Assembly: GCA_009838525.1 (NCBI GenBank)
Contig: VXRJ01000002.1
Span: 1 to 64,000 of the forward strand
Reading direction: 5' to 3'
DNA length: 64,000 nucleotides
From: Acidobacteriota bacterium
GTDB taxonomy: Bacteria > Acidobacteriota > Vicinamibacteria > Vicinamibacterales > UBA8438
Shown: positions 3,637-45,175 of the stretch, piece after piece
How positions within the stretch are numbered: position 1 is the first letter of the stretch
How the letters are laid out: each line of letters begins with the position of its first letter
Translations under genes and position numbers: made by a program
Notes under the pieces: model-generated
Databases searched by the model: none
Seen by the model: the letters and a program-made list of their open reading frames with translations, nothing else
Told to the model about the DNA's origin: nothing

Positions 3637-4524
3637 ATGTCTGTCATGCGGCGTGGCACGGCTCGTGCGCTCACGCGCGCCCACAAGGGTGCGCTTGCGC
3701 TCATCGGTGCGCTGACGCTCGTCTGGGCGGCTGCCGGCCAACTCTCCGCCCAGTCGCGGGAAGGCGGCGAGGTCGATCGAACCGAGGCGTACGCGCTGAT
3801 GGAGAAGGTGATCGAGCGCATCAACTGGTACAACGAGACCGAAGTCGATGCTCGCTTCCGCTCCCGCATGAGAAGGGAAGTACGCCGATTCCATGCCAAC
3901 GGGGATGTAGAGAACGAGAGCTTTGGCGACTACGAGGTGATCCCGATCGAAGGGAAACCGTTCGAGCGCCTCTTCATGATCAACGGCCGCTTGCTCAGCG
4001 AGGAGGAACAGGGCTGGGAGGCGGAACGCGAGGCGGAATTCCGCAAGGAAGTAGTCGAACGCCGCAAGGCGGGCACGCTTCCGGAGGATGACGGGAGCAC
4101 GGACTCGATTGTCTTTGACGACGCGCTGATCGCCCGCTATCACTTCACGCTGGAGGGGGAGGAAACGTTCCGAAACCGGCCCAGCTACCGGATCTCGTTC
4201 CGTCCCCGGCCCGGCCGGTTGCCGGTGGTCCGGCGCATCGACTACGCCCTCAATAGCGCGCGGGGTTTCGTCTGGGTAGACCGCGCCACGTTCGAGCCGG
4301 CTCGCGTCGAGTTCGAACTCATCCAGCCGGTCCGCCTCTGGTGGGGGCTGCTGGGCGTCATCAACCGTGCGCGGGGCTCGCTGGACCGCCGTCCGATCCT
4401 GGGGGACGATGACATGTGGGCTCGCATTCAGCTCGAAAGCTACAGCGACACCCGCGTCCTGTTCAGCCGGACCCTGCGCCGGGAGTTCCGGACATGGCGC
4501 GACTTCGAAGCAGTTGAACCCTGA
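3637..4524 (+). CDS. Exported LolA/LolB-fold-like protein
   Basis: A protein of 295 residues with an N-terminal signal peptide ending near LSAQS. The body resembles the lipoprotein-sorting fold seen in many acidobacterial exported proteins: a charged helix (MEKVIERINWYNETEVDARF), then strands YRISFRPRPGRLPVVRRIDYALNSARGFVWVDRATFEPARVEFEL. The phrase 'WVDRATFEPARVEF' is typical of LolA-like proteins that act on an outer-membrane component. It lies 49 bases upstream of an ABC ATPase gene on the same strand, which fits an envelope-export role. A second ATG at 3646 is an equally possible start. The substrate cannot be told from the sequence. Confidence 0.6.
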   Translation: MSVMRRGTARALTRAHKGALALIGALTLVWAAAGQLSAQSREGGEVDRTEAYALMEKVIERINWYNETEVDARFRSRMRREVRRFHANGDVENESFGDYEVIPIEGKPFERLFMINGRLLSEEEQGWEAEREAEFRKEVVERRKAGTLPEDDGSTDSIVFDDALIARYHFTLEGEETFRNRPSYRISFRPRPGRLPVVRRIDYALNSARGFVWVDRATFEPARVEFELIQPVRLWWGLLGVINRARGSLDRRPILGDDDMWARIQLESYSDTRVLFSRTLRREFRTWRDFEAVEP

Positions 4525-4573
4525 CCGCGCGCCTAGCTATGCTTTTTCGGCTGAGATCACGCCGCCGGACTTC

Positions 4574-5485
4574 ATGCTGCCAACGGACGAAACTCCGCCG
4601 CCGGACCCGACACCACTCGAGAATCCGACCCTCGACTCGAAGGTTGCGCTCGCTGCGGCGCCGCCGCCGATGATCGAGGCGCGGGGGCTCTCGAAGTACT
4701 ACGGGCCGTTTGTCGCCGTCGAGAACATTTCGTTCGTCATTCCCCAGGGGCAGGTCGTGGCCTTCCTCGGGCCGAACGGCGCCGGGAAGACGACGATGAT
4801 GCGGATGCTGACCGGCTATCTCGCCCCCAGCGCGGGATCGGGGGCGATTGCCGGGCACGACGTGCTGGGCGACCGGATCGCGGCATCGCGCCACCTGGGA
4901 TACCTGCCCGAGAACGGCCCGATCTATCCGGACATGACGCCGCTCGAGCTGCTGCGCTTCTTCGGCGAAGCGCGCGAGCTGCCGGCGGAACGCCTCAAGA
5001 CGCGGATTGAAGACGTGATCGATCTCTGCGCCCTGGAGCTGGTGGTGGAAAAGCCGATCGGCAAGCTCTCGCGTGGCTACCGGCAGCGGGTCGGCATGGC
5101 CCAGGCCCTGCTGCATGACCCCGCGGTGCTGATCATGGACGAGCCTACCGCCGGACTCGATCCCAACCAGATCCGGCAGTTCCGCGAGAACATCCAGCGG
5201 CTTGGCCGGACCAAGACGCTGCTCATTTCGACCCACATCCTGCACGAGGCGGAGGCGGTGGCGGATCGCGTGCTGCTGGTCAACAACGGTCGGCTGCTCT
5301 TTGACGGGCCGGTGGACGAGCTGGCGGAGGGTGGATCGCTCGAGCGGCCGTTCTACCGGCTGACTGGCGGCGGCGCGGCGCCCGGTGACGGCGGCGAAGA
5401 CCATGCGTCCGGCGGCGAGCCAGCGCAGGAGGCGGCGGAGGCAGAGGCAGACGCGGGCGCGGAGAAAGAGGAGGCAACGGGTTAA
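4574..5485 (+). CDS. ABC transporter ATPase, GldA-like
   Basis: The ATPase of an ABC-2 type exporter. Motifs run in order: Walker A LGPNGAGKTT, Q-loop region YLPENGPIYPDMT, signature LSRGYRQRVGMAQ, Walker B VLIMDEPTAGLDP and the switch histidine in LLISTHILHEAEAV. The N-terminus from this ATG is a proline-rich 32-residue leader with no homology role; the ATG at 4670 (MIEARGLSKYYG) is a good alternative start. The C-terminus is an acidic, alanine-rich tail of about 45 residues. The stop codon is 2 bases before the permease gene, so the two are surely one operon. The pairing with a fused permease/GldG protein places it in the Gld-like group, which need not mean gliding. Confidence 0.88.
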   Translation: MLPTDETPPPDPTPLENPTLDSKVALAAAPPPMIEARGLSKYYGPFVAVENISFVIPQGQVVAFLGPNGAGKTTMMRMLTGYLAPSAGSGAIAGHDVLGDRIAASRHLGYLPENGPIYPDMTPLELLRFFGEARELPAERLKTRIEDVIDLCALELVVEKPIGKLSRGYRQRVGMAQALLHDPAVLIMDEPTAGLDPNQIRQFRENIQRLGRTKTLLISTHILHEAEAVADRVLLVNNGRLLFDGPVDELAEGGSLERPFYRLTGGGAAPGDGGEDHASGGEPAQEAAEAEADAGAEKEEATG

Positions 5486-5487
5486 CG

Positions 5488-8133
5488 ATGCTGCCCCGAG
5501 TAAATGCGGCGGTCGTGAGGGCGGTGGCGCGTCGCGACCTCCGGCTCTACTTCAGCAGTCCGAGCGGCTACGTCTTCATAACGCTCTTCATTTTCCTGAG
5601 CGCGGCGGCGGCGTTCTGGCAAGACCGCTTCTTCCTGCAGAATCTCGCCAACCTCGATCAGTTGAACAGTGTCTTTCCCTACCTCCTTCTTTTCTTCGTG
5701 CCCGCCCTCACGATGGGGGTCTGGTCGGAGGAGAAGAAGCAGGGGACGGACGAGCTGCTGCTGACGCTGCCCGCGACCGACCTGGAGGTGGTGCTCGGGA
5801 AGTACGCGGCCGTGCTCGGCATCTATACCGTCTCGCTCGGGCTCTCGCTCAGCTACGTCCTCGTCCTCTTCTATCTCGGGAGTCCGGACCTGGGGTTGAT
5901 GCTGAGCAACTACGCCGGCTACTGGCTGGCCGGCGGCGCGCTGATCGCGGTCGGCATGCTCGCGTCGCTTCTGACGCGCAACGCGACAGTGGCGTTCATC
6001 GCCGGCGCGCTCTTCTGCACGGCGCTGGTGATGGTAGGCGACGCCGTCGGCGCGGCGCTGCCGGCGCTCGAGGGCCCGGCCAACGCTCTCGGTGTCTTCT
6101 TCCACTTCGACGACTTCGCGAAGGGGATCATCAGCCTGACGGCGATCCTCTACTTCGATGCGGTCACCGCGTTCTTCCTTTATCTCAACGTCCTGGTGCT
6201 GAGCCGTCGCCACTGGGCGCCCAGAGCAGGCGGCTACCCGCTCTGGCTGCATCACGTCGTGCGCGCGGCGGCGGTAGCGGTGGCGTTGGTGAGCGTCGGC
6301 GTGCTCGTCGGCCGCGCGAGCGTCCGGCTGGACGTGACGGCGGAGCAGCTCCATTCACTCAGCCCCGAGACCCGCGCCCTGATCGACGAGCTGCCGGCGG
6401 ACCGGCCGGTCTTCATCCAGGCCTACATCTCGCCAACCGCGCCCGAGCCATTCGTGCAGACGCGGTCGAACATCATCAGCATTCTGGAGGAGATAGACGC
6501 CATCGCGGGCCCGCGCGTCGAGGTTCTCATCCACGACACCGAGCCGTTCACCGACGCGGCGCGCGAGGCGCGCGAGACGTTCGGCATCCTGCCCCGCCCT
6601 GTCCGGAACGTCAGCTCGGCCCGATCCGAGGTGGAACAGCTATTCCTGGGCCTGGCCTTCACCTGTGGCGCCGAGGAGCAGGTGATCGGCTTCTTCGACG
6701 TCGGGCTGCCGGCCGAGTACGAAATCATGCGGAGCATTCGCGTGGTCGCCCGGACCGAGCGGAAGCGCGTCGGCGTCGTCGCCACGATGGCCAACCTGTT
6801 CGGCGGCACCAACTTCCAGCAGAGTCAGTTCACGCCCCAGTGGTCGGTGATCGCCGAGCTGCGGAAGCAGTACGACGTGGTGGAGATCAGTCCTGAGGCG
6901 GAGATCCGCCAGGAAGTGGACGCGCTGCTGGTGCCGCTGCCGTCGTCGCTCCAGACCGACGAGCAGGGCTTCGTCGCCGACTACATCCGGTCCGGCAAGC
7001 CGGCCCTCATCCTGGTCGATCCGCTGCCGGCGGTGGACCCGACGATCTCGCCCACCGAGTGGGTGGGCGACGGCAACCCGTTCACCTACGGACAGTCGGG
7101 CGCCCGGCCCGGTCCGCGCGGCAACGTCCGCGAATGGATCGGCACGCTCGGCGTCGACTGGGAGCCGACGCGCATCGTGTGGGACAGCTACAATCCCCAC
7201 CCCGACCTCGCCCATATGCCCGAGGACGTCGTCTTCCTGGGGGCGGGAAACGAGAACGAGGCGACGTTCAACACCGAGAACCCGATGACGTCGCAACTGC
7301 AGGAGCTGGTGCTGCTCTATCCCGGGTTCCTGCACGCGGCCGACGAAACCGACTGGACGTTCGAGCCGCTGTTGCGGACCGGCCGGATCTCTGGCACCAA
7401 CGGGTACTTCTCGCTGGTGCGCGGGACGCCGTTCGGGCCGCAGGTGAACCCGAGCCCGCCGCGCGAGCAGGATGACGACGACTACATCGTCGCCGCCCGC
7501 GTGCAGTCCGCTGGCAGCGACGAGTTGGACATCATCGTCGTCGCCGACCTCGACATCATCGGTGAGCAATTCTTCCAGATCCGGGAGCAAGCGCCAGGCG
7601 GGCTGAACTTCGACAACATCACGTTCTTTCTGAACGCCATGGACACGCTCCTCGAGGAGGACGCGTTCATCGATCTGCGCAGCCGCCGGGCGCGCCACCG
7701 GACGCTCGAGCGGGTGGAGGCGCAGACCGCCGAGTTCATCGAGCAGCGGACGGCCGAAGAGCAGCAGGCGGAGGCGGACGCCGAGGCGGCCCTCACCGAG
7801 GCGCAGCAGCGGCTGAACGACCGGGTCGCCGAACTGCAGGCGCGGACCGATATCGACGCGCAGACGAAGCAGATCATGGTGCGCAACCTCGAGGAGGTGG
7901 AGAACCGCCGGCTGGAGGTGCTCTCGACCAACATCAACACCGAGAAGGAAACGCGCGTGCAGGCGAGCCGCGAGACGATGGAGTCACAGATCCGGCGCAT
8001 ACAGACCACCATCAAGACCTTCGCCATCCTCCTGCCGCCCGTCCCGGTCGTGGCGTTCGGCGCCCTCGTCTTCGTCCGGCGCCAGCGGCGCGAGCGCGAA
8101 GGGGCCGCCGCCGCCCGGCGTCTGCGAGAATAG
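5488..8133 (+). CDS. Fused ABC-2 permease (GldF-like) and GldG-like auxiliary protein
   Basis: An 881-residue inner-membrane protein. Residues 1-240 form an ABC-2 permease with about six hydrophobic helices ([40 protein letters not shown], typical of NosY/GldF permeases). A further helix lies near 250-270. The periplasmic part (about 280-650) is GldG-like: [34 protein letters not shown] and [21 protein letters not shown] match the ABC_transp_aux type. It is followed by a glutamate/glutamine-rich coiled coil (about 720-830) and a last membrane helix with a basic tail. In Bacteroidetes GldF and GldG are separate genes; a single fused chain is common in other phyla. leuC starts only 7 bases after its stop codon. 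Confidence 0.85.
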
Positions 8134-8140
8134 AAGCCGC

Positions 8141-9541
8141 ATGGCACAGACACTCTTGCAGAAGGTGTGGGACCTCCACACGGTACGGAAGCTGCCCGAC
8201 GGGAGAACGCAGCTCTTCATCGGCCTCCATCTGGTTCACGAGGTGACGTCGCCGCAGGCGTTCGACATGCTGCGCCAGCGCGGCATCGGCGTCGCCTTCC
8301 CGGAGCGGACCCACGCGACGGTCGACCACATCATCCCGACGCTCGATCAACGGCGTCCCTTCGCCGACGATCTGGCCGAGCAGATGATGTCGGCGCTCGA
8401 GCGGAACTGCCGGGAATTCGACATTCCGTTCTCGGACCTCTCGACCGACCGGCAGGGGATCGTCCACGTGATCGGCCCGGAACTCGGCCTGACGCAACCG
8501 GGCATGACGATCGCCTGCGGGGACAGCCACACGTCCACCCACGGCGCGTTCGGCGCCGTGGCGTTCGGCATCGGCACGTCGCAGGTGCGCGACGTCCTGG
8601 CGTCGCAGTGCCTGGCGATCGATCCGCTCAGGGTGCGGCGCATCAACGTGACCGGCACGCTCGGCGCAGGTGTCTACGCGAAGGACGTCATCCTGGAGAT
8701 CATCGCGCGGCTTGGGGTGCGCGGCGGCGTCGGCTACGCGTACGAGTACGGCGGCGCGGCGATCGACGCGATGTCGATGGACGAGCGGATGACCATCTGC
8801 AACATGTCCATCGAGGGCGGCGCTCGGATCGGCTACGTCAACCCGGACGAGACGGCGTTCGCCTACCTGAAGGGACGTCCCCTTGCGCCGTCCGGCGACG
8901 CCTTCGACCGGGCGTGCGCCTGGTGGCGGTCGATGGCGTCGGACGGGGACGCGGCGTACGACGACGTGGTGACGCTGGACGGCCCCGCGATCGAACCGCG
9001 CGTCACCTGGGGAATCAACCCGGGCCAGTCGGTCGGGGTGACGGAGCGGATCCCCGATCCGGCCGCCGCCGGCGTCGACGCCGACGCGGTCGGAGAGGCG
9101 CTCGAGTTCATGGGATTCGCGGCCGGCGCGCCAATCGCGGGGACGAAGGTGGATGTCGCTTTCGTCGGCTCCTGCACCAACTCGCGCCTTTCCGATCTGC
9201 GCGAGGCAGCGCGGGTAGTGCGTGGACGTCGCGTCGCGCCGCACGTCCGCGCGCTCGCCGTGCCGGGCTCCAAGCAGGTGCGGCAGGCGGCCGAGGCGGA
9301 GGGGCTGCACGAGGTGTTCGCGGAAGCCGGCTTCGAGTGGCGTGGGGCGGGCTGTTCCATGTGCCTGGCGATGAACCCGGACCGGCTGAACGGACGCGAG
9401 GTATGTGCATCGTCCTCCAACCGCAACTTCAAGGGACGCCAGGGAAGCCCGACGGGGCGGACGTTGTTGATGAGCCCGGCGATGGTGGCGGCCGCCGCGG
9501 TCAGCGGCGAAGTGGCGGACGTGCGGGGGATGCTCAACTAG
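8141..9541 (+). CDS. leuC: 3-isopropylmalate dehydratase large subunit
   Basis: Catalyses isomerisation of 2-isopropylmalate to 3-isopropylmalate with LeuD, using a 4Fe-4S cluster. The protein has 466 residues, the normal length. Cluster cysteines are visible in VGSCTNSR (about residue 347) and [13 protein letters not shown] (about 407 and 410). The aconitase signature [13 protein letters not shown] lies near residue 126. It begins 7 bases after the ABC permease gene, so transcription may come from the ABC operon. leuD follows after an 80-base gap that contains a hairpin. Confidence 0.96.
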
Positions 9542-9580
9542 AACTAGCGACGTAGGAGTTTCGCGCCGCCGGGACTTTCA

Positions 9581-9598
9581 CGCGCCCGCCAGGGCGCG
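9581..9598. repeat. Hairpin between leuC and leuD
   Basis: CGCGCCC and GGGCGCG (7-base perfect arms, loop GCCA) lie 23 bases before the leuD start and just ahead of its ribosome binding site (GGAGGAG). There is no T tract, so it is not an intrinsic terminator; it could stabilise mRNA or tune leuD translation. Confidence 0.45.
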
Positions 9599-9620
9599 CG
9601 AGCGTGGAGGAGACGAAGGC

Positions 9621-10214
9621 ATGAGCGAGAGGAAGATCGACCGTATCGAGGGAACCGCTCTCCCGCTTCGGGGCAACAACATCGACACCGACCGGATCAT
9701 CCCGGCGCGCTACCTGAAGGCCATTACCTTCGATGGCCTGGGCGCGCACGCGTTCGAGGACGATCGGGAGTCGATGCCGGACCACCCGTTCGCGAATCCG
9801 GTCCATGACGCCGCGGCGATCCTGGTCGTGAACGACAACTTCGGCTCCGGCTCGTCGCGCGAGCATGCCCCGCAGGCACTGAAGCGGCGCGGCATCGCCG
9901 CGTGCGTCGGGGAGTCGTTCTCCGAGATCTTCCTGGGGAACTCGACGACTATCGGCCTGGTCTGCGCCACCGCGTCGGCGCAGGACATCGCCTTCCTGCA
10001 GTCGCTGGCGGAGAAGGCGCCGTCGACCCGAATGACGCTGAGCGTCGAGGGGCTCACGATCGTCGCGGCGGGCCGAAGCGTGGAGCTCGCCGTCCCCGAC
10101 GCCGTCCGGCATGCGCTGCTGACCGGCCAGTGGGACGCGACCGGCCTCCTGCTCGACGACTTCGAAGACGTGCGCGGCGTCGCGGGCTCGCTCCCTTACG
10201 CCACCGGTTTCTAA
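9621..10214 (+). CDS. leuD: 3-isopropylmalate dehydratase small subunit
   Basis: Swivel-domain partner of LeuC. The protein has 197 residues with NIDTDRIIPARYLK near the N-terminus and the loop FGSGSSREHAPQAL that contacts substrate. A good ribosome binding site (GGAGGAGACGAAGGC) precedes the ATG. The gene ends 39 bases from the convergent leuB stop, so leuCD and leuAB meet tail to tail. Confidence 0.95.
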   Translation: MSERKIDRIEGTALPLRGNNIDTDRIIPARYLKAITFDGLGAHAFEDDRESMPDHPFANPVHDAAAILVVNDNFGSGSSREHAPQALKRRGIAACVGESFSEIFLGNSTTIGLVCATASAQDIAFLQSLAEKAPSTRMTLSVEGLTIVAAGRSVELAVPDAVRHALLTGQWDATGLLLDDFEDVRGVAGSLPYATGF

Positions 10215-10253
10215 GCCGCGGCGCGTCCTGGCCGCCGCCTTCCCGGACTCGCG

Positions 10254-11321
10254 TTACGGCAGGCGATCGAGGATCGCCCGGGTCATCGCGGTGCAACCGA
10301 TCGGCGGCGCCCCGTTGGCCGCCGGCAGATCCGCCGTGCGGCAGCCGTCGGCCAGGGCGGCGCCGATGGCCGTTTCGATGGCGGCCGCCTCCTTGTCCGC
10401 GTTCAGTGCGTGCCGGAGGAGCATGGCGGCGGAAGCGATGGCGCCGATCGGGTTCGCCTTGTCCTGGCCGGCGATGTCGGGAGCGGAGCCGTGGACCGGT
10501 TCGAACAGGCCGCCGTCGCCGCCGATGCTGGCGGACGGCAGCAGCCCGAGCGAGCCGACCACCGCTCCCGCCTCGTCCGAGAGGATGTCGCCGAAGAGGT
10601 TGCCGGCGACCAGCACGTCCATCGACGCGGGCTCGGTGACGAGGCGCATGGTGCACGAATCGACCAGTTGATGTTCAAGCGTGACGTCGGGATAGTCGCT
10701 GGCGACGGCGGTCACCACCTCGCGCCACAGCCTCGAGCACTCCAGCACGTTCGCCTTGTCGACCGACGTCACAAGCCGCCGCCGGCCGCGGGCCGCCTCG
10801 AACGCCACGCGCGCGATGCGTTCTACCTCGCGCACGCTGTAGCGCATCGTGTCGAACGCCGCGGTCCCGTCGGCGTTCCGGCCGCGGGGCTCGCCGAAGT
10901 AGATGCCGCCGATCAGTTCGCGGACGATCAGCAGGTCGACGCCGGCGATCCGATCCGGGCGGAGGGGACAGTCGGCTTCGAGACCCGGCCAGATGAGCGC
11001 CGGCCGGAGGTTCGCCCAGACGTCGAGCGCCTTGCGCAGCTCGAGCAGTCCGGTCTCGGGCCGCCGCTCGCGCGGGCCCTCCGAGAATTCCGGATCGCCG
11101 ACGGCTCCCAGCAGGACCGCATCGGCGTTGCGGCACGTCTCGAGGGTCTCAGGCGGCAGCGGCGGGTCGCCGTTGCGCAGCGCGGCGGCCCCAAACGGTG
11201 AGCGGGTAAGGATCAGGGTGTGGCCGTGACGGTCCGCGATGGCATCGAGGACCGCCTCTGCGGCGTCGATGACCTCCGGGCCGATACCGTCGCCCGGAAG
11301 CAGTGCAATGGTGGCGTGCAT
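10254..11321 (-). CDS. leuB: 3-isopropylmalate dehydrogenase
   Basis: Oxidative decarboxylation of 3-isopropylmalate to 2-oxoisocaproate with NAD. The ATG at 11321 starts MHATIALLPGDGIGPEV and gives 355 residues, the usual length; the longer open frame upstream is only a shadow of leuA. Other motifs are LRKALDVWANLRP (substrate arginines), VDKANVLECSRLWRE, VDSCTMRLV and NLFGDILSDEAG (metal-binding aspartates). It starts 14 bases after the leuA stop, so leuA-leuB is one operon. Confidence 0.95.
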   Translation of the reverse strand: MHATIALLPGDGIGPEVIDAAEAVLDAIADRHGHTLILTRSPFGAAALRNGDPPLPPETLETCRNADAVLLGAVGDPEFSEGPRERRPETGLLELRKALDVWANLRPALIWPGLEADCPLRPDRIAGVDLLIVRELIGGIYFGEPRGRNADGTAAFDTMRYSVREVERIARVAFEAARGRRRLVTSVDKANVLECSRLWREVVTAVASDYPDVTLEHQLVDSCTMRLVTEPASMDVLVAGNLFGDILSDEAGAVVGSLGLLPSASIGGDGGLFEPVHGSAPDIAGQDKANPIGAIASAAMLLRHALNADKEAAAIETAIGAALADGCRTADLPAANGAPPIGCTAMTRAILDRLP

Positions 11322-37280: not shown

Positions 37281-39254
37281 TTGAGCGACAACACCGATCC
37301 ACGGAACAGAAATAGGTTAGTAGGACCGGCGGCGGCATCCGAGGCCAAGCGCGGTTGGAACTCTGATTTCGTTCGGTTCAACGCCACACATCGTTCGCGG
37401 ATTCTCCAACGGCTGCGACTCACCTATCCCGAATCGACGAGGGAAGAACGTCGTTCCTGGGGCGACACGGTACCGAAGCTCCAGCAGGAGGTAGGCGAGG
37501 TTGTCCGCTTGGACACTCACTTCGCTCGATGTACGGCGGTTCTCGAGTACGAGTTACCTATGGAATCGCGGCGAGCGGACGCGGTCCTGCTCCTCCACGG
37601 AAGCATCGTCGTGATCGAGCTCAAGGGAAAACAAGTCCCATCCGACGCCGACATCGATCAGGCGCATGCCTACGCTCGTGACCTGCGCTGTTACCACCGC
37701 GAGTGTCACGACCGACCTGTGCACGCTGTCCTTGTGCCTACGCGCATGCGTGGTCATCACGGACTGGATCGGAATGTGCATGTATGTGGGCCGGACGCTC
37801 TCGACACTCTTGTGGGCAACATCGACACGCCGCGGATTGGACCGTCCATTAGTGCACGTCACTTTCTGGCGGCCGATGCGTACAGGCCACTACCCTCCCT
37901 GATCCGGGCGGCTCGGGAGCTGTTCCTTCACAAGCGACCGCCACAGCTTTGGCAAGCCGCAGCCAATACCGACGCCGCAGTAGATCACATTGCGCGGATC
38001 GTGGCCGATGCGAGTCTCACGAGGACAAGACGGCTCGTGTTGCTAGCGGGCGTTCCCGGTGCCGGGAAGACACTGGTAGGCATGCGTATCGTGCACGATC
38101 CGGGGTTGGATCTCTTGAAGCGGGGTGATCGAGGCGCGCCGGCGGTGTTTCTATCAGGCAATGGGCCGCTCGTCGAGGTGCTGCAGTACGTGCTGGGTCA
38201 GGCTGGCGGGGCCGGGCGTGCATTCGTGCGGCCCATCCGGGAGTACGTACGCCGCTATGAGCGGCGCCCCGGTCTGATGCCGTCCGAACATGTAGTTGTC
38301 TTCGACGAGGCCCAGCGCGCGTTCGACCGGGCGAAGGTCGCTGATACGCACAACCAATCCCTCGCCCACGCCCGTTCGGAACCGGAGCACTTTATTGAGT
38401 TCGCGGAGCGAATACCCGAGTGGTCAGTGATTGTGGGCCTTGTGGGTAGCGGGCAGGAGATTCATGTCGGGGAGGAAGGCGGCCTTAGCCTCTGGGCCGA
38501 CGCGATCCGCCGTAGCAGCAATCCGGACCACTGGACCGTGCACGTACCGCCCAATAGCGCTGACAGTTTTCGCGGACTAACTGTTCACGCGTCGACGGAG
38601 TTGACGCTGGACGAAACGCTCCGGTCGCATCGGGCGGTACGCCTGCACGCGTTCATTGCGACGCTTCTGCACAAGAAACCGCCCAGGGCGCAAGCCCTAC
38701 GAGCACTCGCGGAGGAGCTGCGGGATAACGGTCATGACCTGCGTATCACACGAAACCGCGCGGTAGCCGAACGGTATCTCAGGGAGCGTTACGGGAACCA
38801 CCCGGATGCGCGCTTTGGTCTCATGGCGTCGAGCCGAGATCGTGACCTCGTTCGGTTCGGGGTGCCAAACGACTACCAGTCGACTAAGCGGGTGCGCCAC
38901 GGACCCTGGTACAACGATGGTGAATCAGATGCAGGCGGACGGTCGTGTCGTTACCTCCGAGATTGTGTGACTGAATTCGGCGCCCAAGGGCTAGAACTCG
39001 ACGCAGTCTTGCTCGCATGGGGCACGGACTTCGTCCTGTCTGGAGGCCGGTGGGTGACTGATCGCGCGCGACGGTACCGATCAGCCGGTCACGCTACAGT
39101 GCATGATCCGTGGCAACTGCGAGCGAACGCCTATCGCGTGCTGCTCACCAGAGGTCGTGACGCGCACGTCGTCTTTGTACCGCCCTTGGCGGAGTTGGAC
39201 GAGACATGGACTTACCTGTGTGCTTGTGGTTTTCGACCGCTTAGTGGTTCCTAG
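37281..39254 (+). CDS. PD-(D/E)xK-like nuclease fused to DUF2075 helicase-type ATPase
   Basis: A 657-residue protein from a TTG start. Residues about 45-130 look like a restriction-type nuclease: an early glutamate, then RRADAVLLLHGSIVVIELKGK (D ... ExK). Residues about 235-650 form a DUF2075/Schlafen-type superfamily-1 ATPase: Walker A LLAGVPGAGKTLVG, motif II HVVVFDEAQRAFD, motif III-like SVIVGLVGSGQEI, and motif VI ANAYRVLLTRGRDAHVVFVP. Similar fusions occur in defence islands. Codon use looks less GC-biased than in neighbours (by eye). It is flanked by the SRPBCC gene and a convergent TonB receptor gene, with no methylase or toxin partner. Confidence 0.75.
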   Translation: MSDNTDPRNRNRLVGPAAASEAKRGWNSDFVRFNATHRSRILQRLRLTYPESTREERRSWGDTVPKLQQEVGEVVRLDTHFARCTAVLEYELPMESRRADAVLLLHGSIVVIELKGKQVPSDADIDQAHAYARDLRCYHRECHDRPVHAVLVPTRMRGHHGLDRNVHVCGPDALDTLVGNIDTPRIGPSISARHFLAADAYRPLPSLIRAARELFLHKRPPQLWQAAANTDAAVDHIARIVADASLTRTRRLVLLAGVPGAGKTLVGMRIVHDPGLDLLKRGDRGAPAVFLSGNGPLVEVLQYVLGQAGGAGRAFVRPIREYVRRYERRPGLMPSEHVVVFDEAQRAFDRAKVADTHNQSLAHARSEPEHFIEFAERIPEWSVIVGLVGSGQEIHVGEEGGLSLWADAIRRSSNPDHWTVHVPPNSADSFRGLTVHASTELTLDETLRSHRAVRLHAFIATLLHKKPPRAQALRALAEELRDNGHDLRITRNRAVAERYLRERYGNHPDARFGLMASSRDRDLVRFGVPNDYQSTKRVRHGPWYNDGESDAGGRSCRYLRDCVTEFGAQGLELDAVLLAWGTDFVLSGGRWVTDRARRYRSAGHATVHDPWQLRANAYRVLLTRGRDAHVVFVPPLAELDETWTYLCACGFRPLSGS

Positions 39255-41769: not shown

Positions 41770-42819
41770 CTACGGCTGCCGCGCCTCCGCCGCGCGGGTG
41801 GAACGCAGCGAGAGCTCAGCCGCGTAGTTCCCCTCGTGACAGGCGTACTCGTAGATGACGCCGGTGCCGGGGGCCGGTCGCAGGAAGACACGCGCGGTCC
41901 AGGGTTGGGTCCAGGTCGAGGGGTCGTCCAGCGTGAACTCGTACTGCAGCAGCTCGGGTCCGACGCGGCTGAATCGCTCGGTCATCCGGACGTCGGGCGT
42001 CGAACCGTGCACGCCGCGCAACAGATTCGAGGTCTCCACCACCAGGGTGTCTCCGTCCCAGCGCCCGCGCGAGCTGCCCACGACGCTCGGCGGCCCGACC
42101 CGGCTCGGCGCCGCGTCGCCAATCGGAATCAGCCGCGTTTCGTGATGCATCTCGAGCTGTATCGCGACATAGTCGGGGGTCTGGAAGATCTGGTAGTTGC
42201 TGTTGTAGCCGCGCCCGCTCAACATCGGACTGCCGCCCCGACAGCGAACTCCCGGGTCGAGGCGGTCCAGTTCTTCGGCAACCGTTTCCGGGCGATCGGC
42301 CGGGATGGTGCGGCGCGCCTCCTGTTGTTGCCGCCTGCGCTCCTCCGCCCCGGCCGCCAGCGGCGGCAGGCGCCCGTTGGGAGGATCGATGATCAGGGAC
42401 GTGCGGTTGTCGAGCCAGCGGTGACCCATCCACTGCTGGCCGTAGCTGTAGAACGGGTACCTCGCGGGCGGCGGCTCGCCCTCCAGCGAGCCCAGGGCTC
42501 TGAGGAACACCTGGTCGCCGAACAACGCGTCGTCCGCGCCGCCGACAACCGCGGCCGCGTGCTCGCCCAGCTCCGCGACCTCCTCATCCGTGAGCGTCGT
42601 CCGGTCAGCCAGTGCCTCCGGCCGCTGCAGCGGCGTTGCCGAGTCATTGGCCCAGACTCCCTGCAGATCGGGCCGGCCGTCAGCCAGGCGCGGCGCCTGC
42701 CACCCCTCCGGCGCCGCGGTCGAGATGATCGTGACGGACCTCGGATGCTGGGCCGTTACCGTCACTCCTACCGAAGCTGCGACGACCACTGCGAGCGCTG
42801 CGATCCACTGCCTGCTCAT
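41770..42819 (-). CDS. Exported protein of an unnamed acidobacterial family (copy 2)
   Basis: About 349 residues from the ATG at 42819, which follows GGAGGAGTCACGAG and begins a signal peptide (MSRQWIAALAVVVAASVGVTVTAQ). It shares with the 25113 gene the motifs RPDLQGVWANDSATPLQRPE, TSLIIDPPNGRLPP, QIFQTPDYVAIQLE, GRWDGDTLVVETSN, STWTQPWTARVFL and YEYACHEGNYAA. Copy 2 has an extra 50-residue acidic/alanine segment near residue 60-110. It lies 60 bases upstream of the TonB receptor gene, which suggests that the family may serve a transported or surface-processed substrate. The function is unknown. Confidence 0.75.
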   Translation of the reverse strand: MSRQWIAALAVVVAASVGVTVTAQHPRSVTIISTAAPEGWQAPRLADGRPDLQGVWANDSATPLQRPEALADRTTLTDEEVAELGEHAAAVVGGADDALFGDQVFLRALGSLEGEPPPARYPFYSYGQQWMGHRWLDNRTSLIIDPPNGRLPPLAAGAEERRRQQQEARRTIPADRPETVAEELDRLDPGVRCRGGSPMLSGRGYNSNYQIFQTPDYVAIQLEMHHETRLIPIGDAAPSRVGPPSVVGSSRGRWDGDTLVVETSNLLRGVHGSTPDVRMTERFSRVGPELLQYEFTLDDPSTWTQPWTARVFLRPAPGTGVIYEYACHEGNYAAELSLRSTRAAEARQP

Positions 42820-42865: not shown

Positions 42866-43201
42866 TCAGGCACCGGCGCGTCGTCGTCGGCGGCGACGCC
42901 GGCGGGGCCGTAATCCGCGAAAGTCGTGGTTGCGGTAGGCGGTCATCACCGCGTCGTTACGGCAGACGACCTGAACGCCTTCCTCTGTGGTCAGGTCGAT
43001 ACCCGCCAGACGGAAGCGGGCAACTTCCTTCCTGCCGATGGCGTAGATGGTGGCGCCCCGGGCATGGAACACCCGGCCGTACTCGAGCACCCGCTGCACG
43101 GCGGCGTACGACAGGCGGCGGGCGGAAATCCGTTTCCTTGCATGTCGGGTCAGGTTCTGGAACCCGCGTAGATGGTCGACGTTGCGGGTAATGCTGTTCA
43201 T
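42866..43201 (-). CDS. DUF4258-domain protein with poly-arginine tail
   Basis: About 111 residues from the ATG at 43201 (AGGAG upstream). LTRHARKRISARRLSYAAVQRVLEYGRVFHARGATIYAIGRKEVARFRLAGI and AVMTAYRN match DUF4258, a small family often found among toxin-like or orphan addiction genes and with a BrnT/RelE-like look. The C-terminus runs into nine consecutive arginines ([10 protein letters not shown] then AGA). No antitoxin-like gene is directly adjacent; upstream is the ARPP-1 gene and downstream the exported protein. Confidence 0.7.
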   Translation of the reverse strand: MNSITRNVDHLRGFQNLTRHARKRISARRLSYAAVQRVLEYGRVFHARGATIYAIGRKEVARFRLAGIDLTTEEGVQVVCRNDAVMTAYRNHDFRGLRPRRRRRRRRRAGA

Positions 43202-43253: not shown

Positions 43254-44171
43254 CTACATCTCGTTTATCGGATCATGCGTGAAGAAGGCCGCGTGCACAA
43301 CCCCCCCGTCGAGGGTTAGCGCCTGGCCGACGAGCCGCTTGTCGGCCACGCGGCGCTCGACGCCGAGACCTACGCCGGGCGCCTCCTTTCCCGGCGCCAG
43401 CGCGAAGCGTCGCGCCAGCTCCAGCACGCGCGTGGCGGACGGCCGACCCTCTACGTCGGGTGACTCGAGCAGGTACGACCGGATGAGCGCCGGCCAGTGT
43501 GCCGCCAGCAGATCGGGTGCTCCGAAGAGGTCCATCCCCTGCACCCACCGCCCGTGAGTGACGGCGATGCCGCACTGGCCGGGCAGCGGCCCGCCCGCGG
43601 CGAGCTTCTCGATCGCCTGGGCCCGGGACCGATCGCGGCGGTAGGTCTCCCGGCGCATCTCGGCCGCCGCACCGGTAGGCGACTCCACCGACGCGTCGTC
43701 CAGCATCGCATCGACCTCGTGCCAGACCCCCGACTGGTCTCCTTCGCGAGAGCCTCGCTGCCTCATGGACCTTGCTACCCCGGCCTGTTGCGCCGCGCGG
43801 ACCCGGTTGGGAGCGAACGCCTCGTCGCGGCGGTAAGTCTGGCGGCGGCCCCAGCGGCCCCGTTCGAGGCACGACACGGGGATCTCCAGGCCGGCCTTGG
43901 CCGGCACGAGGACGGTCGCGTTGAGGGCGCGGTTCTGCTTGCCGCCGATGAAGTGTTCGCCCTCAACGACCAGCACGGGCTTGTCGCCCGGGTTGCGCAC
44001 CCGCAGCGTTTTCACCGCGGCCTCGTCGAGCTCGTCGATGACAAGGCCCGAGGCCTCGCCCGTGGTGATCGGCGGCAGGCCGTTGGCCGCCAGATACACG
44101 GGGAAGAAGGACACGCCGAGCCGGGTGATCGGCGAGCCGATAGCGACGGTTTCGAGCTGCGAGTTCGTCAT
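43254..44171 (-). CDS. ARPP-1 (DUF6569) family protein
   Basis: About 305 residues. VLVVEGEHFIGGKQNRALNATVLVPAKAGLEIPVSCLERGRWG is the core signature. GIAVTHGRWVQGMDLFGAPDLLAAHWPALIRSYLLE follows, and the C-terminus has FALAPGKEAPGVGLGVERRVADKRLVGQALTLDGGVVHAAFF. The family name refers to association with ADP-ribosylglycohydrolases and rhodanese-phosphatases, so an NAD/ADP-ribose link is likely, but its activity is not known to me. ATG 44171 has ATGGAGGTG upstream. A near-consensus promoter with two operator-like repeats controls it, shared with the NUDIX regulator gene. Confidence 0.78.
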   Translation of the reverse strand: MTNSQLETVAIGSPITRLGVSFFPVYLAANGLPPITTGEASGLVIDELDEAAVKTLRVRNPGDKPVLVVEGEHFIGGKQNRALNATVLVPAKAGLEIPVSCLERGRWGRRQTYRRDEAFAPNRVRAAQQAGVARSMRQRGSREGDQSGVWHEVDAMLDDASVESPTGAAAEMRRETYRRDRSRAQAIEKLAAGGPLPGQCGIAVTHGRWVQGMDLFGAPDLLAAHWPALIRSYLLESPDVEGRPSATRVLELARRFALAPGKEAPGVGLGVERRVADKRLVGQALTLDGGVVHAAFFTHDPINEM

Positions 44172-44187
44172 GGGCACCTCCATCTAG

Positions 44188-44208
44188 TTATTGTTTAACA
44201 GACAATAA
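44188..44208. promoter_or_regulatory. Operator-like inverted repeat 1 (TTATTGT-N7-ACAATAA)
   Basis: Perfect 7-base arms. Its inner part fits TTGTT-N5-GACAA (44191-44205), the same layout as repeat 2, 37 bases away centre to centre. It overlaps the -10 box of the ARPP-1 promoter and the start site region. Confidence 0.65.
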
Positions 44209-44234
44209 TAGAGATGGACGCTTGCTTTTGTCAA
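44205..44234 (-). promoter_or_regulatory. Promoter of the ARPP-1 operon
   Basis: On the minus strand TTGACA (44229-44234) and TATTAT (44205-44210) are 18 bases apart, a near-consensus sigma-70 promoter. The -35 lies inside repeat 2 and the -10 touches repeat 1, so repression would be expected when both are bound. Confidence 0.65.
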
Positions 44235-44242
44235 GAGGACAA
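44228..44242. promoter_or_regulatory. Operator-like inverted repeat 2 (TTGTC-N5-GACAA)
   Basis: Perfect 5-base arms, same layout as repeat 1. It covers the -35 of the ARPP-1 promoter and lies 16 bases before the GTG start of the regulator gene, next to TATATT (44243-44248). Confidence 0.6.
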
Positions 44243-44257
44243 TATATTTTCAGTCCC

Positions 44258-45175
44258 GTGGCCCCCGGCGCGCCCTCCGGCTACGATCCCCGCGCCTACC
44301 CCCCGTTTGCCGTCACCGTGGACATTGCCGTCTTCACCATCCGGGACGACGCGCTGCACGTGTTGCTGATCGAGCGCGGTCAGGAGCCGTTCAAGGGAGC
44401 CCTCGCGCTACCGGGGGGTTTTGTCAAACCGGACGAGGACCTGGATGAGGCCGCGGCCCGGGAGCTGGCCGAGGAAACCGGCCTGCGCGACGGTTCCTGG
44501 CACCTGGAACAACTCGGGAGCTACGGCGCTCCGGACCGGGACCCGCGCATGCGGGTGGTCACCGTCGCCTACTGGGCGATCTGCGCCGGGCTGCCGGGGT
44601 TGCGCGCCGGTACCGATGCCGCTCTCGCGCTGCTGGTGCCGGTAGAGGAGATCGAGGTGGGCAACGCGCGCCTCGCGTTCGATCACGAACGCATCGTCAG
44701 GGACGCCGTCGAGCGGACGCGGTCCAAGCTGGAGTACACGGCCCTGGCCGCGAAGTTCTGTCCGCCGGAGTTCACGATCGCCCAGCTTCGCCGCGTCTAC
44801 GAAGCGGTCTGGAACACGCATCTCGACCCCGGCAACTTCCAGCGCAACGTTCAGGAGAGCGGGGCCTTCGAGAAGCGCGGCGGGGCGGTGTCCTCCTTCC
44901 GCTCCCGCCGCGGGCGGCGCGCGGCGCTCTGGTCGGTTCGTGAATCGGCCTTCAGCATGGCCCCGCCTTCCGCTCCCCTGGACCGGGCGCTCGCCCGGCG
45001 ACGGCGACCGACGTGGCCCCAGTCACCCGTCATGTCGGGCCCTCCACCTGACCCGAGCGAGGTCGACGCGGCGCCGTCGGCCGACGAATCCGACCCGCCG
45101 CAGGCTGCGGACGAGGCCGGCTCACCACCGCCGGGTGAGGCCGGTTCACCGCCGAAGAAGGACGACAAGACCTAG
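44258..45175 (+). CDS. NrtR-like NUDIX transcriptional regulator
   Basis: About 305 residues from a GTG at 44258. The NUDIX domain is at residues 15-150: VDIAVFTIRDDALHVLLIERGQEPFKGALALPGGFVKPDEDLDEAAARELAEETGL contains the full Nudix box (GGFVKPDEDLDEAAARELAEETGL: G-x5-E-x7-REUXEE). The C-terminal winged helix (FTIAQLRRVYEAVWNTHLDPGNFQRNV) is the DNA-binding part of NrtR, the regulator of NAD biosynthesis that senses ADP-ribose. A proline- and serine-rich tail of about 70 residues is extra. The divergent ARPP-1 gene is the obvious target. A TTG at 44222 would place repeat 2 inside the gene, so it is less likely. Confidence 0.82.
   Translation: MAPGAPSGYDPRAYPPFAVTVDIAVFTIRDDALHVLLIERGQEPFKGALALPGGFVKPDEDLDEAAARELAEETGLRDGSWHLEQLGSYGAPDRDPRMRVVTVAYWAICAGLPGLRAGTDAALALLVPVEEIEVGNARLAFDHERIVRDAVERTRSKLEYTALAAKFCPPEFTIAQLRRVYEAVWNTHLDPGNFQRNVQESGAFEKRGGAVSSFRSRRGRRAALWSVRESAFSMAPPSAPLDRALARRRRPTWPQSPVMSGPPPDPSEVDAAPSADESDPPQAADEAGSPPPGEAGSPPKKDDKT

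Follow-up and report, generated by a model that had tools for sequence, protein, structure and literature searches.

An NrtR-like regulator and an ARPP-1 gene diverge from a promoter region with two predicted operators, an arrangement that recurs in several bacterial phyla

A 64,000-nucleotide stretch of an Acidobacteriota genome (assembly GCA_009838525.1, contig VXRJ01000002.1, positions 1 to 64,000; hereafter the window) contains a divergent pair of genes encoding an NrtR-like regulator and an ARPP-1 protein, separated by a short region that carries two matching palindromes, boxes A and B. We propose, with a probability of roughly 0.7, that the pair forms a self-regulated two-gene switch, in which the regulator would act as a repressor on boxes A and B, an ADP-ribose-type ligand would release it, and ARPP-1 would act on that ligand. 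In this proposal we infer DNA binding, repression, the identity of the ligand, and the activities of the Nudix domain and of ARPP-1.

The ARPP-1 gene (PF20208, formerly DUF6569; Pfam E-value 2.6e-64) occupies positions 43254–44171 on the minus strand and encodes 305 amino acids from an ATG at 44171, ahead of which a probable Shine-Dalgarno sequence, GGAGGTG, was read at 44175–44181 (minus strand). The regulator gene (44258–45175, plus strand) encodes a Nudix domain, an NrtR winged helix and a low-complexity C-terminal tail, and begins with a GTG at 44258, leaving 86 bp between the two divergent genes. A longer regulator frame, from TTG 44222, was rejected because the GTG start is conserved in relatives. 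A putative nrtR –10 element, TATATT (44243–44248, within 44243–44257, plus strand), lies 9 bp ahead of this GTG, and the corresponding spacing is ~8 bp in five relatives. Since the GTG follows the –10-like TATATT by only 8–9 bp and reading of the sequence ahead of it gave no evident Shine-Dalgarno, the arrangement suggests a leaderless transcript from what would be a weak promoter. The 4.29-Mb genome contains a single NrtR_WHD gene and a single ARPP-1 gene.

The two boxes have one layout, TTGTY-N5-GACAA, and lie 37 bp apart, start to start. Box A, over the –10 region of ARPP-1, has the core TTGTTTAACAGACAA at 44191–44205, which together with its flanks makes up a perfect 7-7-7 palindrome, TTATTGT-TTAACAG-ACAATAA, spanning 44188–44208. 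Box B, TTGTCAAGAGGACAA (TTGTC-AAGAG-GACAA), spans 44228–44242, where it overlies the –35 of ARPP-1 and immediately precedes the putative –10 of nrtR. The sole strong match of the divergent region in a promoter scan was a sigma70-type ARPP-1 promoter, TTGACA-18-TATTAT (44205–44234, minus strand), with 11 of 12 matches against a shuffle mean of 0.0, and it is kept in relatives. Its –35 is covered by box B; of its –10, the 15-bp box A touches one base and the extended palindrome covers four. A preliminary description of the locus had placed two such repeats, 37 bases apart in the 86-base region, on the –35 and –10 of a near-consensus ARPP-1 promoter; the coordinates, the promoter match and both overlaps are confirmed, and its central claim, that an NrtR-like regulator and ARPP-1 share a divergent promoter with two matched operators, is supported.

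Counted singly, sites in the window are not significantly enriched (three found versus 1.67 expected, with up to one mismatch), and in a piecewise search of the 4.29-Mb genome TTGTYN5RACAA occurred at five places, compared with three for the reversed control. The extended form WWTTGTYN5RACAAWW was found without mismatch only at boxes A and B in the genome (control, 0). It is their pairing, promoter position and conservation that set the palindromes beyond chance. The remaining three single matches, at C11:1064, C16:177815 and C18:377479, were treated as chance, the count being near that of the reversed control; their surroundings, when read, included a DUF1778/GNAT-like gene pair (identified by eye) downstream of one site and nothing that looked NAD-related.

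The exact double palindrome was found in 4 of 100 related genomes, each time between an ARPP-1 and an NrtR-like gene (reversed control, 0), and in five members of the family that carry the divergent pair both boxes lie 36–37 bp apart despite different surrounding genes. A wider GTDB scan yielded 42 ARPP-1 loci, all from metagenome-assembled genomes (MAGs), spanning Acidobacteriota, Pseudomonadota, Actinomycetota, Latescibacterota, Rhodothermota, Bacteroidota, Dadabacteria and others. The regulator is adjacent and divergent to ARPP-1 at 25 loci, the window included. At least one site, with no more than one mismatch, is present in 22 of these 25 pairs (0.58 expected from shuffles), and two sites within 140 bp of ARPP-1 in 15 (0.04 expected). 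The preliminary description had named lack of conservation of the repeats upstream of orthologous ARPP-1 or NrtR genes as the result that would count against it, and the opposite was found. The spacing between boxes takes values of 26, 30, 32, 35, 36 and 37 bp across the pairs, and in most pairs with the 35–37-bp layout the sites overlap both the –35 and the –10. Two sites occur in 15/25 pairs with the regulator and in 0/10 judgeable loci without it (Fisher p = 0.001, uncorrected for relatedness and indicative only, because the loci share kinship and some MAGs repeat between sets, L043, L045, L046 and L047, for example, recurring from the related-genome search). The predicted double operator is thus tied to the regulator/ARPP-1 pair and recurs with it in bacteria of several phyla.

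That the double sites track the regulator in this way, that exact double sites occur only at the ARPP-1/NrtR locus among the 100 genomes, and that the NrtR winged helix of the protein scores over the Pfam cut-off together make it extremely improbable that the palindromes are bound by another regulator and that the NrtR-like protein is just a nearby Nudix enzyme. Such a reading would draw on the three divergent pairs in which the motif was not found (L076, L077 and L079) and on the fact that binding by the NrtR-like protein is a prediction. In the intergenic region of L079 (4944–4978), the half-sites are changed to GATCAT/ATGATC while the double inverted-repeat layout is kept, as expected of operators co-evolving with a regulator. 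In the same MAG the ARPP-1 reading frame is split in two (L079:4980–5987).

ARPP-1 orthologues with no adjoining regulator also exist (for example L042, L066 and L074). At L066 and L075, where no regulator was found in the flanking DNA examined, one near-site, TTGTCCACCCGACAC (one mismatch), lies upstream of ARPP-1 and is perhaps a relic operator. The ARPP-1 tree and the regulator tree both mix phyla, which suggests that the pair was transferred together; MAG contamination or paralogy is the alternative. At one locus from the window's own bacterial family (L033, genome G009, 4471–10952), a distant ARPP-1 lies between two NrtR-like genes.

The regulator matches NUDIX (PF00293, 6.8e-18) and NrtR_WHD (PF21906, 2.3e-10), both over cut-off. 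This order of Nudix domain and winged helix, with a palindromic operator conserved across orthologues, places it in the NrtR superfamily; PADLOC returned a weak, generic Nudix match only. Its structural model has a pLDDT above 80 over most of both domains, with a disordered tail, and the fold matches AraR (5bs6) and SoNrtR (3gz5 and 3gz6), including the DNA-bound and ADP-ribose-bound (3gz8) forms. The Nudix box, GX5EX7REUXEEXGU, is intact in the N-terminal domain. All the regulators listed from ARPP-1 loci retain RExxEE, and the window regulator and most of the others have the full signature with its final Gly, whereas the signature is reported to be impaired in NAD-type NrtR and AraR (PMC4666351; PMC6800001). 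Judged from its residues, the Nudix domain of the window regulator is probably active.

An alignment of 27 regulators identified R40, R94 and H143 as invariant. These align with Arg34, Arg86 and His131, the arabinose contacts of AraR (PMC4666351), and alignments with SoNrtR show the same residues, so that the Arg/Arg/His set does not tell a pentose from ADP-ribose. The absence of any match to ADP-ribosylglycohydrolase (ARG, PF03747) in the window's genome also speaks against ADP-ribose, as it leaves no recognised source of this compound. With AraR the best PDB match of the regulator both by sequence (109.5 bits) and by fold, and with ligands that differ among NrtR-family members, the same local operator logic could instead respond to a pentose or pentose phosphate, as for AraR, to NAD, as for NdnR of C. 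glutamicum, or to a nucleotide arising in phage attack. We regard a non-ADP-ribose inducer of this kind as unlikely. AraR has lost its Nudix catalytic residues, but the regulators examined here all retain RExxEE, a difference that points to a Mg-nucleoside-diphosphate ligand. In related loci ARPP-1 has ARG genes as neighbours, and no sugar-catabolic genes consistently lie next to it. An ADP-ribose-type ligand is a plausible inducer. The ADP-ribose link put forward in the preliminary description gains from the ARG genes beside ARPP-1 and from the conserved ligand residues, both at the level of sequence, and its prediction of an NAD response found no counterpart in an NAD-gene target.

The ARPP-1 of the window matches PF20208 over its full length, which places it in this family of unknown function, for which there is no solved relative. 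In alignments it keeps the invariant residues Q79, R81, C101, E103, R106, W107 and Q199, of which Q79, C101 and Q199 are invariant in 40 ARPP-1 sequences. The structure model has a pLDDT of 90.6, and a fold search with it against the PDB and viral models returned nothing below an E-value of 0.001. No ARPP-1 was found in phages, two weak matches, named DUF6569, were found in plasmids, and literature searches under the names ARPP-1 and DUF6569 retrieved no relevant work.

For the proposed switch, we hypothesize that boxes A and B are occupied by the NrtR-like protein, probably in dimeric form, which would occlude the –35 and –10 of ARPP-1 and so repress that gene; as box B lies beside the nrtR –10, the regulator would also repress its own. 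A rise in free ADP-ribose or a related nucleotide would place an ADP-ribose-type ligand in the Nudix pocket, release the regulator from the DNA and allow ARPP-1 to be made, and ARPP-1 would then act on the ribose-bearing ligand, perhaps via its invariant cysteine. With its intact Nudix box, the regulator may in addition hydrolyse its own inducer and thereby reset the switch. Since the box is intact throughout the clade, the repressor may be one that removes its own inducer, a behaviour that could not be seen in the degenerate NrtR proteins investigated to date. More tentatively, and with less than even odds, the pair may represent a widely shared ARG-free NrtR/ARPP-1 unit that resets itself as the repressor destroys its inducer, be it ADP-ribose or another nucleotide related to it; ARPP-1 would in that case be a new protein for handling ribose or ADP-ribose, with a predicted fold that matches none in the PDB. 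The compactness of the pair, with one regulator, one promoter region of less than 90 bp and one target, makes the link between ARPP-1 and ADP-ribose directly testable.

Separated by ~50–60 bp and in the same orientation, the genes downstream of ARPP-1 are a DUF4258-like open reading frame (42866–43201, minus strand; likely ATG at 43201 with AGGAG ahead; Pfam 21.6 bits, cut-off 25), a gene for an exported protein with no Pfam family at cut-off (41770–42819, minus strand) and a TonB receptor gene. The preliminary description had joined all four into one NAD/ADP-ribose-responsive operon, consistent with the common strand and short gaps, and with the lack of any other promoter-like match at 39.25–44.26 kb in a scan with poor power in a lineage this rich in GC. 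Read-through from ARPP-1 into the downstream genes is possible. A single responsive transcript as the functional unit is nonetheless very improbable, since the 42 GTDB ARPP-1 loci yielded no homologues of the three genes, none of which lies beside the divergent pair in the five family members. The exported-protein family, with 59–91 matches in each of 28 same-family genomes and about 84 in a typical one, appears from these counts to be a large lineage expansion, and the closest orthologue of the exported protein (79%) is in a genome without ARPP-1. Given this ubiquity and the absence of all three genes beside ARPP-1 elsewhere, the larger operon is not a conserved functional unit. Beyond these genes, a large NTPase-like gene (37281–39254, plus strand) has a third-position GC of 0.66, versus about 0.75–0.92 in its neighbours, and was possibly acquired.

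In other bacteria the pair has different company. ARG follows or is fused to ARPP-1 in 5 of the 25 divergent pairs (L049 and L051–L054), vWA-like genes lie beside it in three (L055, L076 and L078), and the flanking DNA of the other 17, the window included, contains neither. In Acidimicrobiales and other Actinomycetota, vWA, ARG and a dual-specificity phosphatase accompany the pair. ARPP-1 is apparently fused to an ARG-like part at L052:5001–6362 and to a vWA-like part at L076:4338–5888, which supports a function shared with these parts.

Compared with known systems, the architecture is that of the NrtR proteins of S. oneidensis and M. smegmatis, ADP-ribose-responsive repressors of NAD genes, which have in common with the window regulator a Nudix domain joined to a winged helix and, as predicted here, palindromic operators and autoregulation. 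In contrast to NAD-type NrtR, no NAD biosynthesis gene was recognised beside the window pair or the pairs of its relatives, the only two strong sites of the genome are both at ARPP-1/nrtR, and the Nudix box, reported as impaired in characterised proteins of that type, is intact. The M. smegmatis operator, GTTTTCGA-N7-TCGAAAAC (PMC6800001), also differs from boxes A and B. Assignment as an NAD-metabolism NrtR equivalog was rejected on the missing NAD-gene target, the intact Nudix box and a score of 127.8 bits against NCBIfam NF050029 (NtrR equivalog), below its curated cut-off of 400. The Bacteroides arabinose regulator of the NrtR family, BtAraR (PMC4666351), is the best structural match, has the same Arg/Arg/His residues and acts on a target promoter with two tandem operators, like the two boxes of the window. 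However, the catalytic glutamates of the Nudix domain are lost in BtAraR, whose targets are arabinose genes, and an AraR identity was rejected for the window regulator on its intact box and the lack of a conserved sugar-catabolic neighbour.

A close parallel is provided by the predicted anti-viral, ARG-centred systems of PMC9503650 (2022), in the available text of which ARPP is named and tied to Nudix and WYL one-component repressors. Its authors propose that such systems sense ADP-ribose, that ARPP acts on ribose moieties via a conserved cysteine, and that the Nudix domain of the regulator helps to process ADP-ribose. The related loci with ARG or vWA are ARG-centred systems of this kind, and the window is a reduced form, which has the ARPP and the Nudix one-component regulator but differs from the systems described in that text in having no ARG in the window or its genome. 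The preliminary description had considered its gene set undescribed; as far as that text goes, ARPP with Nudix-type regulators was already reported in ARG-centred systems, the two-gene ARPP neighbourhoods it gives pair ARPP with HIRAN, WYL or a deacetylase and none with a Nudix regulator, and it describes no operator sequence. The kind of system is thus a known one, and what is added here is an NrtR/ARPP-1 pair without ARG, with defined candidate operators and a probably active Nudix domain.
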